Origin: an uncultured Flavobacteriaceae bacterium
GTDB taxonomy: Bacteria; Bacteroidota; Bacteroidia; Flavobacteriales; Flavobacteriaceae
Direction of reading: 5' to 3'
Assembly: GCA_913061125.1 (NCBI GenBank)
Contig: CAJXUB010000001.1
Span: 46,424 to 110,423, forward strand
DNA: 64,000 nucleotides
Shown: piece after piece, positions 34,798-39,666 of the stretch
How positions within the stretch are numbered: position 1 is the stretch's first letter
Layout of the letters: the number at the start of each line of letters is the position of its first letter
Position numbers and translations under genes: made by a program
Notes under the pieces: model-generated
Databases searched by the model: none
Told to the model about the DNA's origin: nothing
The model's input: the letters and a program-made list of their open reading frames with translations, nothing else

Positions 34798-34828
34798 AGA
34801 AAAAGCAAAGCACCGCCAGAAGCGATGC
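34798..34828 (-). terminator. Terminator-like hairpin (minus strand), module 1
   Basis: Minus strand GCATCGC-TTCTG-GCGGTGC followed by TTTGCTTTTTCTG; one G-T wobble in stem. Confidence 0.55.
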
Positions 34829-34912
34829 CTTACCAATTAACCAATTTAACTTGTAATAAGATATTTAATTACTCTGCTAAAGTATGACGGAAACCAATAA
34901 AAAAAAAGGGTC

Positions 34913-34970
34913 ATGTAACAAACGGCCATTTGACGTAATAAACGGCCATTTGACGTAATAAACGGGAAAA
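34913..34970. repeat. 58-bp element, copy 1: ATGTAACAAACGGCCATTTGACGTAATAAACGGCCATTTGACGTAATAAACGGGAAAA
   Basis: Identical to 39609..39666; one substitution vs 35123..35180; contains three AAACGG half-sites at 20-bp period. Confidence 0.95.
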
Positions 34971-35007
34971 ATGAGTTACAAATATTTCTACAAAATCGTT
35001 TAGGTTT

Positions 35008-35042
35008 AAAAAAAAGAGAGTGTCTTTAAAAAGACACTCTCT
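35008..35042 (-). terminator. Strong intrinsic terminator (minus strand), module 2
   Basis: Minus strand AGAGAGTGTC-TTTTTAAA-GACACTCTCT followed by a run of T (plus-strand A8 at 35008-35015). Confidence 0.85.
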
Positions 35043-35122
35043 TGGGACTAAGTCAAATTCTAATAAATTATGAAAACTTTATGGCATAAAATTACTTCAA
35101 CCTGAAGATCTATACAAGCATT

Positions 35123-35180
35123 ATGTAACAAGCGGCCATTTGACGTAATAAACGGCCATTTGACGTAATAAACGGGAAAA
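35123..35180. repeat. 58-bp element, copy 2
   Basis: One substitution (AAGCGG for AAACGG) relative to copies 1 and 3; 17 bp past the lytR-like stop codon. Confidence 0.95.
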
Positions 35181-35197: not shown

Positions 35198-35959
35198 CTA
35201 AGAAATATTGAGATAAGCCACTAATTCCTCCTTTCGGCGTTTGGCCACCGGCAACACTATATTGCCTTCCATTTCACAATTGCTGCCATCTGCATTGTTA
35301 ATATTGACAATGTACTTGAGATTAATCAGATATTTTTGATGAATTCTAAAAAAGTATGCGGGAGATAATATTTTGTCATACTCACCAATATTTTTGGCGA
35401 CAACAATGGTACCCCCATCGTGCATATGAACAATCGTGTAGCGCCCGTCGGATTCAAAAAAGAGAATATCCTCTAATTTTCTAAAATGAATTTTCCGAAT
35501 GGATGGGATGGCTATAAAGTTGTAATTTGAAGTGTTTGCTTCCATAGAATCTTTGAGGGACTCGATTTGAGCTGGTGTCGTGTAGTACTGATTGTCTAAA
35601 CTGTTTTTTACTTTTTCAACGGCTAAGATCAAGTCCTTTGTGTCAATTGGTTTTAGTAAAAAATCGATGGCATTAAATTTAAATGCTGAAAGTGCATATT
35701 CTTGGAAGGCAGTGATAAATACCACCAAAAAATCATCATATTGGATTTGTTCCAAAACATCAAAACCAGTTCCTTGATCCAAAACGATATCCAAAAAAAT
35801 AAGCTTTGGCTCTATGTTATTTATCTTCGCTATGGCATCGGATACTGTTGTTGCAACATCAACAATTTCAATGGATGGGCAGTGCCGTTCTAAGTAGATT
35901 TTGAGTAGTTCGTTGTTTTTGACTTCGTCATCAACTAAAATAGTGGAGATTTTTTGCAT
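35198..35959 (-). CDS. LytTR family response regulator
   Basis: REC domain (ISTILVDDEVKNNELL, PKLIFLDIVLDQGTGFDVL, FLLKPIDTKDLILAVEK) and LytTR domain (FFESDGRYTIVHM...FFRIHQKYLINLKYI). Confidence 0.95.
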   Translation of the reverse strand: MQKISTILVDDEVKNNELLKIYLERHCPSIEIVDVATTVSDAIAKINNIEPKLIFLDIVLDQGTGFDVLEQIQYDDFLVVFITAFQEYALSAFKFNAIDFLLKPIDTKDLILAVEKVKNSLDNQYYTTPAQIESLKDSMEANTSNYNFIAIPSIRKIHFRKLEDILFFESDGRYTIVHMHDGGTIVVAKNIGEYDKILSPAYFFRIHQKYLINLKYIVNINNADGSNCEMEGNIVLPVAKRRKEELVAYLNIS

Positions 35960-36113: not shown

Positions 36114-37997
36114 GTGTTATACCATCGCATAAAAATCGCTTTTAAGTCAATTTTAAAGCGCCTAAATTCGGCCTATTTAATCGCCGTTTATTTAATTTTA
36201 TTTGCCTTTGGCTGGAGCCATGCTCAACCCCTGTCCAAAGACGAGTTGGTCAAAATTATCGATAGTGTAAACCAATCGGAACTTGAAAATGTAGATCGGG
36301 TTTATAATGAGTTAAAGCAACACGCTTTGGACATTGAAGAGGATTCGATTTATGCTGAATTGACCTTTAAACAAATTGAAAAAAATGGTGGTATTTTTCT
36401 TTATTCGCAGACTGAAATTCTGCTGGGAAATTTGCTTTTTAATGAACATTATTTTTTAAAAAATCATCCCAAAATTCTCTTACGATGTCTTCATGATCTT
36501 GCCAGGTCGTACCTATTCCACAGCGGTTCATCTGAAATAATCAAAAGTATTTCAGAACACTACTATAAGCGGTATTTTAAACTCCTTAGACAATTGAATC
36601 TAAATGCTGATGAAGAAAAAATAGCCAAAAAAAACAAGTTACAATACCTGGTTCACACCAAAAATGACAGCCTGTTTTATTACTTAGATCTGTACAAAAT
36701 TAGTGAGGCCAAAAAAGCAAAATATTTAAATCACTGGTACAAAGAACTTAACCTACCGCTAAAAGAGCTGCAATATGCCACGCTCACTGGGGATAAAATG
36801 GCAATCATTACAGCGCACTTTAACAACCGCAATTTTAATGAGGTTGTTAAGTTGTATCCTGATTTTTTGAAACGTTTTAAAGCTGAAAATGATATTTTGG
36901 GAGAACACCAATTGTACCGCATTATGGGTCAATCTTACTTGATTCAAAATAAATTTCAGAAGGCGGAGGCATTCTATGCAAAAGCTCTAAATTATTTTAA
37001 ACAAAATACCTCTAGCCCTTATGTTGAAGAGATCTACAACGACTTAATTGATTTGCAATCTAGAGTTAATAATCTTGAAAAATATCGTTTTTACAGCAAT
37101 GAACTCATTAGTTACACGAATAACCTGAAAGAGCAGCAACTTGAGGTGTTGCGCAATCATCTTGATTATTCCAGTAAAATTTCAAATCTCGAACTGAAAC
37201 TCAAAAACGAAGAAGAGGCCTTAAAAATTGAAGGGTTTCAAAATCAAATCAACAAACAAAAAACAATCATTTCATTTGCGTTGGGTCTTATTGTGGTTAC
37301 CCTAATATTTATATACTTCTATGCGGTAAGTTCAAAAACGCAGGCGGAGTTGGAGGACGCCAATAAGCAAATGGTTATTGATGTTTTAAGATCAAAATTT
37401 AAACCTCATTTTACTTTTAATGTTTTGTCCGTAATCAATTATTTTGTGGAAAAAAAAGAGGTTAAAAATGCCACATTAGCATTGACAAAAATGTCTTCAT
37501 TGCTGCGGTCAACACTAGATAACATGAACGAAAAACTGGTGTCTTTTGAATCGGAATATCAAATTTGTCAAAACTATATGTATTTGGAATCCCTTCGTTT
37601 TTCGAACAAATTTGATTATGAATTTCAGCCGCTTGATAATTTGACTGCATCACATTGGTTAATTCCCCCTGGCGTTTTAGAGCCGATTTTAGAGAACGCT
37701 GTGAATCATGCTTTTAAAGGGGTGGATTATAAGGGGAAAATTAATTTCAACTACGAAATCACCGATGACTTTTTTTTAAAGATTACCATCAAAGATAATG
37801 GGACAGGATTTAGGCCTTCTTCTGGAATCGTAAAGAAAAAATCGCACGGATTAAAAATCACTAGAGATTATATCAAAACCGTTTCTAAATTGTACAAAAA
37901 ACCAATTCAATTGGAGTTTTTTTCGAATCAAGGTACTCAAGTCGTTTTAACAATTCCCAGGCTGAATCCAGATTTAGGGTATTTTAAAAACGACTAA
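36114..37997 (+). CDS. LytS-type sensor histidine kinase with TPR-like sensor region
   Basis: RSKFKPHFTFNVLSVINYFV (His_kinase box) and IPPGVLEPILENAVNHAFKG ... IKDNGTGF ATPase motifs; one predicted TM segment. Confidence 0.92.
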   Translation: MLYHRIKIAFKSILKRLNSAYLIAVYLILFAFGWSHAQPLSKDELVKIIDSVNQSELENVDRVYNELKQHALDIEEDSIYAELTFKQIEKNGGIFLYSQTEILLGNLLFNEHYFLKNHPKILLRCLHDLARSYLFHSGSSEIIKSISEHYYKRYFKLLRQLNLNADEEKIAKKNKLQYLVHTKNDSLFYYLDLYKISEAKKAKYLNHWYKELNLPLKELQYATLTGDKMAIITAHFNNRNFNEVVKLYPDFLKRFKAENDILGEHQLYRIMGQSYLIQNKFQKAEAFYAKALNYFKQNTSSPYVEEIYNDLIDLQSRVNNLEKYRFYSNELISYTNNLKEQQLEVLRNHLDYSSKISNLELKLKNEEEALKIEGFQNQINKQKTIISFALGLIVVTLIFIYFYAVSSKTQAELEDANKQMVIDVLRSKFKPHFTFNVLSVINYFVEKKEVKNATLALTKMSSLLRSTLDNMNEKLVSFESEYQICQNYMYLESLRFSNKFDYEFQPLDNLTASHWLIPPGVLEPILENAVNHAFKGVDYKGKINFNYEITDDFFLKITIKDNGTGFRPSSGIVKKKSHGLKITRDYIKTVSKLYKKPIQLEFFSNQGTQVVLTIPRLNPDLGYFKND

Positions 37998-38145: not shown

Positions 38146-39492
38146 TTATTTTATTCTGATAACTTCTACTCGTCTGTTTTGTTTTCTTCCTTCACGTGTT
38201 GCATTAGAAGCCGTTGGTTTAGATTCTCCAAATGCTTCGGTTACTAACGCTGACGCAGGTACACCATTGTTTACTAGATAATCTCTAACGGCTTTAACTC
38301 GTCTTTCAGATAACTTCATATTCATAGCGCTGTTTCCTGTACTATCCGTATGCCCTTCTAATTTGAATTGAGCCTCTGGGTGTTGGTTGATTATTTTTAC
38401 AATCTCTCCAAGGACTGCATATGTTTCTTGCTTGAAACTGGACTTACTGGTGTCGAATAGGATGCGTTTTGATAAATTATTCAAGTCTGAACCCCTATCA
38501 CCCACAACAACTTCTTTGTAGGGACAACCGTTATTTTCAGGGATTCCAGGAACTTTTGGACACCTGTCAGCGCTATCAACAATACCATCATTATCAGAAT
38601 CTGGAAGCGGGCATCCTTTATTACTCGCAGGACCTTTTATTTTCGGACAATTGTCAACAGAATCCAATAGACCATCACCGTCTGAGTCAACATCGACTGG
38701 CTTTGGCGGACAACCATTGTTACTGGCCACACCGCTAACATTTGGACAACGATCCAAATTATCGTTTATGCCGTCACCATCAGAATCAGGAATAATCGTT
38801 GGAAGAATGTCTTCAACTGTTTCTTCTTCTATCACCTCACCTCCAAAGTTGATAGACAGCCCCAGAGCATGTTGGAAGTGCTTCGTTAAATAATCTTTAA
38901 ATGAGTGCTTGTAGGTAGTGCTATAAGTTAATCCTATATAATCTGAAAACCAATATGAAAGTCCTAACGTCCCGTTTAGAGTTCCTGCACCTACGTTGGC
39001 ACTTGACTTTTTGGCATTATTAGTGTTGTATGGACCTTCTTCGATCCATGTGTATCCACCACCTAGGCCAATAAAAGGCTCTAATCGTTTAGATTTAACA
39101 AGATTAGATAGGCTATATTTTACAGAGCCGTCCAAAGCATAATACATCAAATCATCAACCTTAAGAGATGGATTTGTGGCGGTCTGTCCCCACTTTTCTA
39201 TTCGATTTAAAGAGGCAGTGAATGCAAATGAAAAATTATCTTTAAAATATCGGCCTACAGAAAGGGTAGAAACTGAAGGTAATATATTCCAGTGATCTTC
39301 TAAGTTAAAAAATTCATCAAAATAAGATCCTTGTGGAGAGTCCTCCCCAACGGGGTATACATCTACAGCATTGACTCCTATAGTAATTTGCCACGGATTA
39401 GCTTCGTTTTGTGCTGTTGAAGTCCACGCAAATAGGACAATCAACGCTAAAAGCCTACTAATTTCTTTGATGTTGTTAGTAATTTTTTTCAT
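38146..39492 (-). CDS. OmpA family outer membrane protein with thrombospondin type-3 repeats
   Basis: DSDGDGINDNLDRCPNVSGV-type repeats and C-terminal OmpA domain EGHTDSTGNSAMNMKLSERRVKAVRDYLVNNGV. Confidence 0.94.
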   Translation of the reverse strand: MKKITNNIKEISRLLALIVLFAWTSTAQNEANPWQITIGVNAVDVYPVGEDSPQGSYFDEFFNLEDHWNILPSVSTLSVGRYFKDNFSFAFTASLNRIEKWGQTATNPSLKVDDLMYYALDGSVKYSLSNLVKSKRLEPFIGLGGGYTWIEEGPYNTNNAKKSSANVGAGTLNGTLGLSYWFSDYIGLTYSTTYKHSFKDYLTKHFQHALGLSINFGGEVIEEETVEDILPTIIPDSDGDGINDNLDRCPNVSGVASNNGCPPKPVDVDSDGDGLLDSVDNCPKIKGPASNKGCPLPDSDNDGIVDSADRCPKVPGIPENNGCPYKEVVVGDRGSDLNNLSKRILFDTSKSSFKQETYAVLGEIVKIINQHPEAQFKLEGHTDSTGNSAMNMKLSERRVKAVRDYLVNNGVPASALVTEAFGESKPTASNATREGRKQNRRVEVIRIK

Positions 39493-39608
39493 GCTTAATA
39501 CAGTTTAATATTTAAATTTATTTTGGGCGGTGTACTCAACCCGAGCATGTAGCCACGGTTGAATGCACTTTGCAAAGGACGGTTGAAAGTTTAACTTTCA
39601 CTAACCTC

Positions 39609-39666
39609 ATGTAACAAACGGCCATTTGACGTAATAAACGGCCATTTGACGTAATAAACGGGAAAA
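39609..39666. repeat. 58-bp element, copy 3
   Basis: Identical to copy 1; lies in the divergent ompA-like/tetR-like intergenic region. Confidence 0.95.

Follow-up and report, generated by a model that had tools for sequence, protein, structure and literature searches.

A putative LytTR-dependent family of tandem small RNAs with a start-codon-complementary core in marine Flavobacteriaceae

Most of what is known about multicopy small RNAs (sRNAs) of Bacteroidota comes from gut Bacteroides, and to our knowledge no transcription factor has yet been identified for the FopS family. The FopS sRNAs of Bacteroides thetaiotaomicron possess canonical promoters, have an unknown activator and target SusC-like transporters (PMC11697453). 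Outside the Bacteroidota, the sRNA SpoZ of Clostridioides difficile is activated by RgaR via paired direct-repeat sites upstream of its promoter; it is a Firmicutes RNA of about 528 nt, encoded by a single gene and largely antisense to its neighbour (PMC10602386). The same arrangement of activator and direct repeats applies to the VirR-activated regulatory RNAs of Clostridium perfringens, which are also Firmicutes RNAs encoded by single genes. In Flavobacterium psychrophilum, the single sRNA Rfp18 has a strong secondary structure and is needed for full protease mRNA levels (PMC9723704).

The locus presented here lies in a 64,000-nucleotide stretch of DNA (in the following, the window) from the genome of an uncultured Flavobacteriaceae bacterium (G000) and comprises two tandem modules (Table 1). 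The RNA family represented by module 1 resembles FopS in being multicopy, in its conserved seed, which is unpaired and precedes a Rho-independent terminator, and in the pairing, here only predicted, with start regions of outer-membrane or exported-protein mRNAs. It differs from FopS in its core, in the lack of an Rfam match and in its LytTR-type operator. With SpoZ it shares an activator-type arrangement of direct repeats, but its members are short, paralogous sRNAs arranged in tandem, their seed is of the trans type and their operator has three half-sites. An effect on secreted-protein mRNAs, again merely predicted here, would be common to Rfp18 and the present family. In the published literature searched, we did not find any link between LytTR regulators and sRNAs in Bacteroidetes.

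Operator elements and promoter geometry

The initial annotation described two 58-bp elements at 34913-34970 and 35123-35180, spaced by 210 bp, with a strong terminator on the minus strand behind each of them, and our analysis confirmed this. The elements of both modules are 94% identical across 65 nt. They contain two copies each of the 20-mer CGTTTATTACGTCAAATGGC, and two more, at 39621-39660, precede an ompA-like gene, which gives six matches in the window compared to 0.02 expected from shuffles. On the minus strand, each element reads as two copies of CCGTTTATTACGTCAAATGG followed by CCG(T/C)TTGTTACAT(G/A)A and thus represents three LytTR-type half-sites with a period of 20 bp, the third being CCGTTTGTTACATGA or a close variant. 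The whole genome harbors approximately eight such operators. If scored against what we take to be the LytTR consensus, the half-sites of module 1 match eight of nine positions, and the promoter-proximal half-sites reach at least eight of nine in 32 of 34 cases (background 1%). The 20-bp period also satisfies the described layout of LytTR sites, i.e. repeats of roughly 9-11 nt in direct orientation, separated by 11-13 nt (PMC4847170).

Some further operators were noticed beside these. The ompA-like gene is preceded by an operator also in the related genome G009, and operators near L009 3997, L012 4018 and L013 4035 are located ahead of genes for exported, small membrane and short lipoprotein-like proteins. 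The lipoprotein-like frame behind one of them is short and may be broken, and the position of the -7 box varies in two of these three.

In six of the eight operator copies of the window's genome, a -7-like box begins exactly 26 nt past the last half-site. Only the TTTG half of this box fits in the ompA copy, and in the copies at C7 and C23:6715 the box is poor or displaced. We rescanned the sRNA copies of the relatives without presupposing the spacing, and TAnnTTT was present at exactly 26 nt in 33 of the 35 scorable copies, i.e. those with a recognisable operator. Module 1 of the window is one of the two exceptions (TACTTTAG stands there), and the box of module 2 is the better one. An NTTG occurs in the -33 region of 33 of 34 sRNA copies, and a few family copies have a degenerate operator or none (L140, L150). 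A scan for E. coli-type sigma-70 promoters did not give any excess over shuffles, which is expected in Bacteroidota. The flavobacterial sigma-A box has the sequence TAnnTTTG and occupies positions -12 to -5 (PMC9723704). If the -7 box is placed accordingly, the key G of the half-sites comes to lie near -51 and -71, and the critical G residues of the spoZ promoter are found at -51 and -72 (PMC10602386). The proposed order of an operator and promoter, a short non-coding RNA and a terminator is hence supported by the conserved spacing and by the LytTR-like half-sites, albeit without transcript data.

Table 1. Positions and properties of the features discussed in the text (window coordinates unless a locus is named)
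Feature	Position	Strand	Description
Operator, module 1	34911..34965	-	half-sites CCGTTTATTACGTCAAATGG (34946-34965, 34926-34945) and CCGTTTGTTACATGA (34911-34925)
-7 box, module 1	34877..34884	-	TACTTTAG, 26 nt past operator; degenerate, weaker than family consensus TATATTT[GA]
Predicted sRNA, module 1	34799..34872	-	about 74 nt; start deduced by placing the box at -12 to -5; family alignment and model
18-nt core, predicted seed	34835..34852	-	AAGTTAAATTGGTTAATT, invariant in family
Intrinsic terminator, module 1	34799..34834	-	hairpin 34804-34834 and T-rich tail, z = -3.8; covaries in family
Operator, module 2	35121..35175	-	half-sites 35156-35175, 35136-35155 and CCGCTTGTTACATAA (35121-35135)
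-7 box, module 2	35087..35094	-	TAATTTTA, 26 nt past operator; CTTG in -33 region
Predicted RNA, module 2	35006..35082	-	no relative found
Intrinsic terminator, module 2	35008..35043	-	hairpin 35014-35043 and T-run, z = -6.9; strongest terminator
Adjacent LytTR response regulator	35198..35959	-	Response_reg and LytTR domains
LytS-type sensor histidine kinase	36114..37997	+	His_kinase
Third operator copy	39607..39661	-	upstream of ompA-like gene 38146-39492
Orphan LytTR regulator	L132 4260-4973 (G000:C18)		near rpsF/rpsR/rplI and priA

The RNA family of module 1 and the RNA of module 2

The gaps between operators and hairpins had been described as lacking a plausible ORF and as dissimilar to each other. 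The absence of an ORF holds for both modules. The two spacers are indeed not similar to one another, but that of module 1 is similar to others in the same genome and in related genomes. Module 1 therefore meets the criterion of an own promoter, no ORF and a Rho-independent terminator, and a second locus of the window's genome (C17, L011) bears a similar RNA. We identified 38 distinct copies of the family in Flavobacteriaceae-type genomes, often two or three in tandem about 190 bp apart. Their 5' ends vary, the 18-nt core (AAGUUAAAUUGGUUAAUU) is invariant, and the terminator covaries. A covariance search in related genomes detected the RNA in 10 of 12 genomes of the genus, usually with two copies each. 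All six good-quality genomes carry the module 1-type RNA, and the model did not match in two lower-quality ones. In the terminator helix, 95.8% of the cells are paired and 27 double-sided changes occur, a value reached by none of 500 shuffles, so that the criterion of a structure kept by covariation is met for this helix. A conserved 5' hairpin was also considered and rejected, since it is weak and missing from several copies.

A scan of public genomes, which demanded the exact 18-nt core, returned 20 stretches, nearly all of them titled Flavobacteriaceae, Formosa or Bacteroidetes. The invariance of the core in this set of named genomes is thus partly a consequence of the search itself. A match in Clostridium was discarded, as the architecture of the family is absent there. 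The record L131, titled Rhodobacteraceae, contains two full operator-sRNA modules and is probably a mis-binned contig. No Rfam model matched the family at gathering scores, and nothing credible appeared at a permissive threshold; membership in the FopS/GibS family was rejected for want of such a match. A wide distribution can be dismissed as well, because, when 398 genomes of the order were searched with the model, only weak single matches appeared outside the known genera. Some of these are plainly mere terminators, and two, in genus g180, are loosely core-like. Weak model matches in a genus other than the window's (L284/L285 near 1501-1579) show AAAGTTTGGTTGGTTATT ahead of a strong terminator and are possible distant relatives. 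The operator shared by the two modules also precedes an apparent second conserved RNA (L010 3840-4023, L021/L024 near 1350-1540), found in G000, G003 and G009, with a large hairpin whose loop contains GATYCCCAAATYT.

The situation is different for module 2. Its RNA body has no relatives within the genus and was found in the window's genome only, so that the criterion of a conserved body is not met, and support is limited to the operator, the promoter geometry and the terminator. No other terminator precedes its hairpin when one reads downstream from the response-regulator gene, so the transcript of that gene may end here as well. Module 2 could represent a young sRNA, or its RNA might double as the 3' end of the response-regulator mRNA.

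Complementarity of the core to translation start regions

Potential targets were found by a pattern search for the complement of the core, allowing for at most one mismatch, and such sites are located just upstream of start codons. For the counts, the shorter AACCAATTTAA had to lie within 12 nt of an ATG, and reversed patterns served as controls. In G150, which possesses three tandem copies, 21 sites were counted (reversed controls: 2). Six genomes of the window's genus contain 31 sites (controls: 8), about 26 of them distinct once antisense matches to the sRNA itself are removed, and five genomes without known sRNA have 6 sites, compared to 7 for the controls. Expressed as the near-ATG share of all AACCAATTTAA occurrences, the values are 19 of 28 for G150 (p = 5e-5), 26 of 70 for the window's genus, a modest enrichment (p = 0.03), and 6 of 35 for the genomes without known sRNA.

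The matched genes mostly begin with a signal peptide or lipoprotein signal. A crude hydrophobicity test was met by 23 of the 28 distinct matched genes, compared to 20 of 46 long ORFs of the window. Some of the genes are evident orthologs across species, e.g. between G003 and G009 or G000 and G003, and the domains encoded by them include Sortilin-Vps10, Peptidase_M43, PKD and fn3. The family thus meets the FopS-like criterion of a seed complementary to the translation start regions of several mRNAs. As the core matches many start sites of exported proteins, the sRNA is probably a brake on the production of cell-surface proteins, a conclusion drawn without transcript data.

Candidate activators, alternative readings and the proposed circuit

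LytTR control, as suggested by the initial annotation, agrees with the fit of the half-sites, for which no binding data exist, but the neighboring response regulator is not a requirement. The window's genome has two LytTR genes. The adjacent response regulator is found within the genus only in G000 and G009, and an orphan-type LytTR gene is present in each genus genome examined. According to the alignment, this orphan type carries a Glu at the position of the expected phospho-acceptor Asp of the adjacent regulator. Activation of both modules and of ompA by the adjacent regulator together with its kinase would explain why a LytTR protein adjoins the operators and why the neighboring ompA has an operator in G000 and G009; G150, with its tandem array, has a likely ortholog of this regulator too. 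We nevertheless regard this as unlikely, since G003, G005, G006 and G010 all have operators and sRNAs, and the orphan is their sole LytTR gene. In G003 (L105 4855-6120, G003:C4), the whole regulator-kinase-ompA block is missing at the syntenic site, and the operator and the sRNA remain between TetR and the PUL regulator. Near-complete relatives without the adjacent regulator keep the system, which argues that this protein is dispensable for it. The start region of the orphan gene itself pairs with the core: the fraction of shuffled cores pairing equally well is 0-0.018 in most sRNA-bearing genomes and 0.05 in G005. The pairing is not seen in the sRNA-free G002, but the sRNA-free G001 still gives 0.03. 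Such pairing suggests feedback, and for this reason we prefer the orphan as activator. In the absence of binding data, the odds for this choice are about even. The orphan also occurs in genomes that yielded no operator. The orphan of G010 does not show an obvious residue change matching the shifted half-sites of that genome. Both LytTR regulators may bind the half-sites.

The RNAs themselves and their operators could also be understood in other ways. The core might be a binding site for a protein, e.g. an RRM-type RNA-binding protein, and the matches near start codons incidental: 18 invariant nucleotides are more than a seed needs, and RbpB binds a conserved stretch of the FopS sRNAs (PMC11697453). 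We give little credence to this explanation, given that the enrichment near ATG is specific to sRNA-bearing genomes and that some start codons show complementarity to almost the whole core, G000:C37 in 17 of 18 positions. The core may, of course, serve as both protein site and seed. It seems similarly unlikely that the hairpins merely terminate upstream genes or act as leaders or attenuators of downstream ones, without a separate sRNA. The position of the module 2 hairpin behind the response-regulator gene and that of the C17 sRNA just upstream of a TPR-like gene would be in line with it. However, each RNA is preceded by a promoter at a fixed distance from an activator-type operator, the core is kept at loci with differing neighbors and in tandem arrays, and a separate TAC(A/T)TTTG box past the terminator serves the TPR-like gene. 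Near-identical operator copies at about eight places of a 1.8-Mb genome might finally bring to mind a mobile or selfish intergenic repeat without regulatory role. This can be practically ruled out, because the copies hold their orientation and distance to the promoter box and the half-sites of the relatives at the same loci have diverged, in G010 even together (CCACTTATTAC).

It is therefore probable, in our judgment, that the two modules are independent sRNA genes belonging to the regulon of an activator of the LytTR type, that the module 1 seed represses start regions and that the activator is subject to feedback. An operator, the promoter geometry, an RNA family, terminator covariation and start-codon complementarity could all be demonstrated at the level of the DNA. 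The activator would bind the three half-sites, whose 20-bp period ends beside the -33 region, and, as inferred from the conserved geometry, aid RNA polymerase at the fixed -7 box 26 nt off. Judging from the comparison of the copies, module 1 would yield an sRNA of about 74 nt in which a variable 5' end is followed by the unpaired core and the terminator. The core is predicted to pair with mRNA start regions, mostly those of exported proteins and lipoproteins, for which complementarity is evident and repression of translation is inferred. As the start region of the orphan regulator is also complementary to the core, the sRNA probably acts back on the regulator that activates it. Module 2 would contribute another RNA, controlled by the same operator and with an unknown target. 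Transcription and LytTR binding are, like the feedback and a role at the envelope, inferred.

A fully closed circuit of envelope control, where the orphan LytTR regulator with its Glu at the phospho-acceptor position activates the tandem sRNAs via the three-half-site operator and the sRNAs repress exported-protein and regulator mRNAs at their start, remains a tentative idea for which the chances are somewhat less than even. The family nevertheless represents sRNAs outside Rfam that would link a LytTR-type regulator to the control of surface and secreted proteins, the regulation being inferred. In marine Flavobacteriaceae, the sequence gives access to every part, from the operator and the promoter to the RNA, its seed and the candidate targets, and the whole circuit is thus directly testable.
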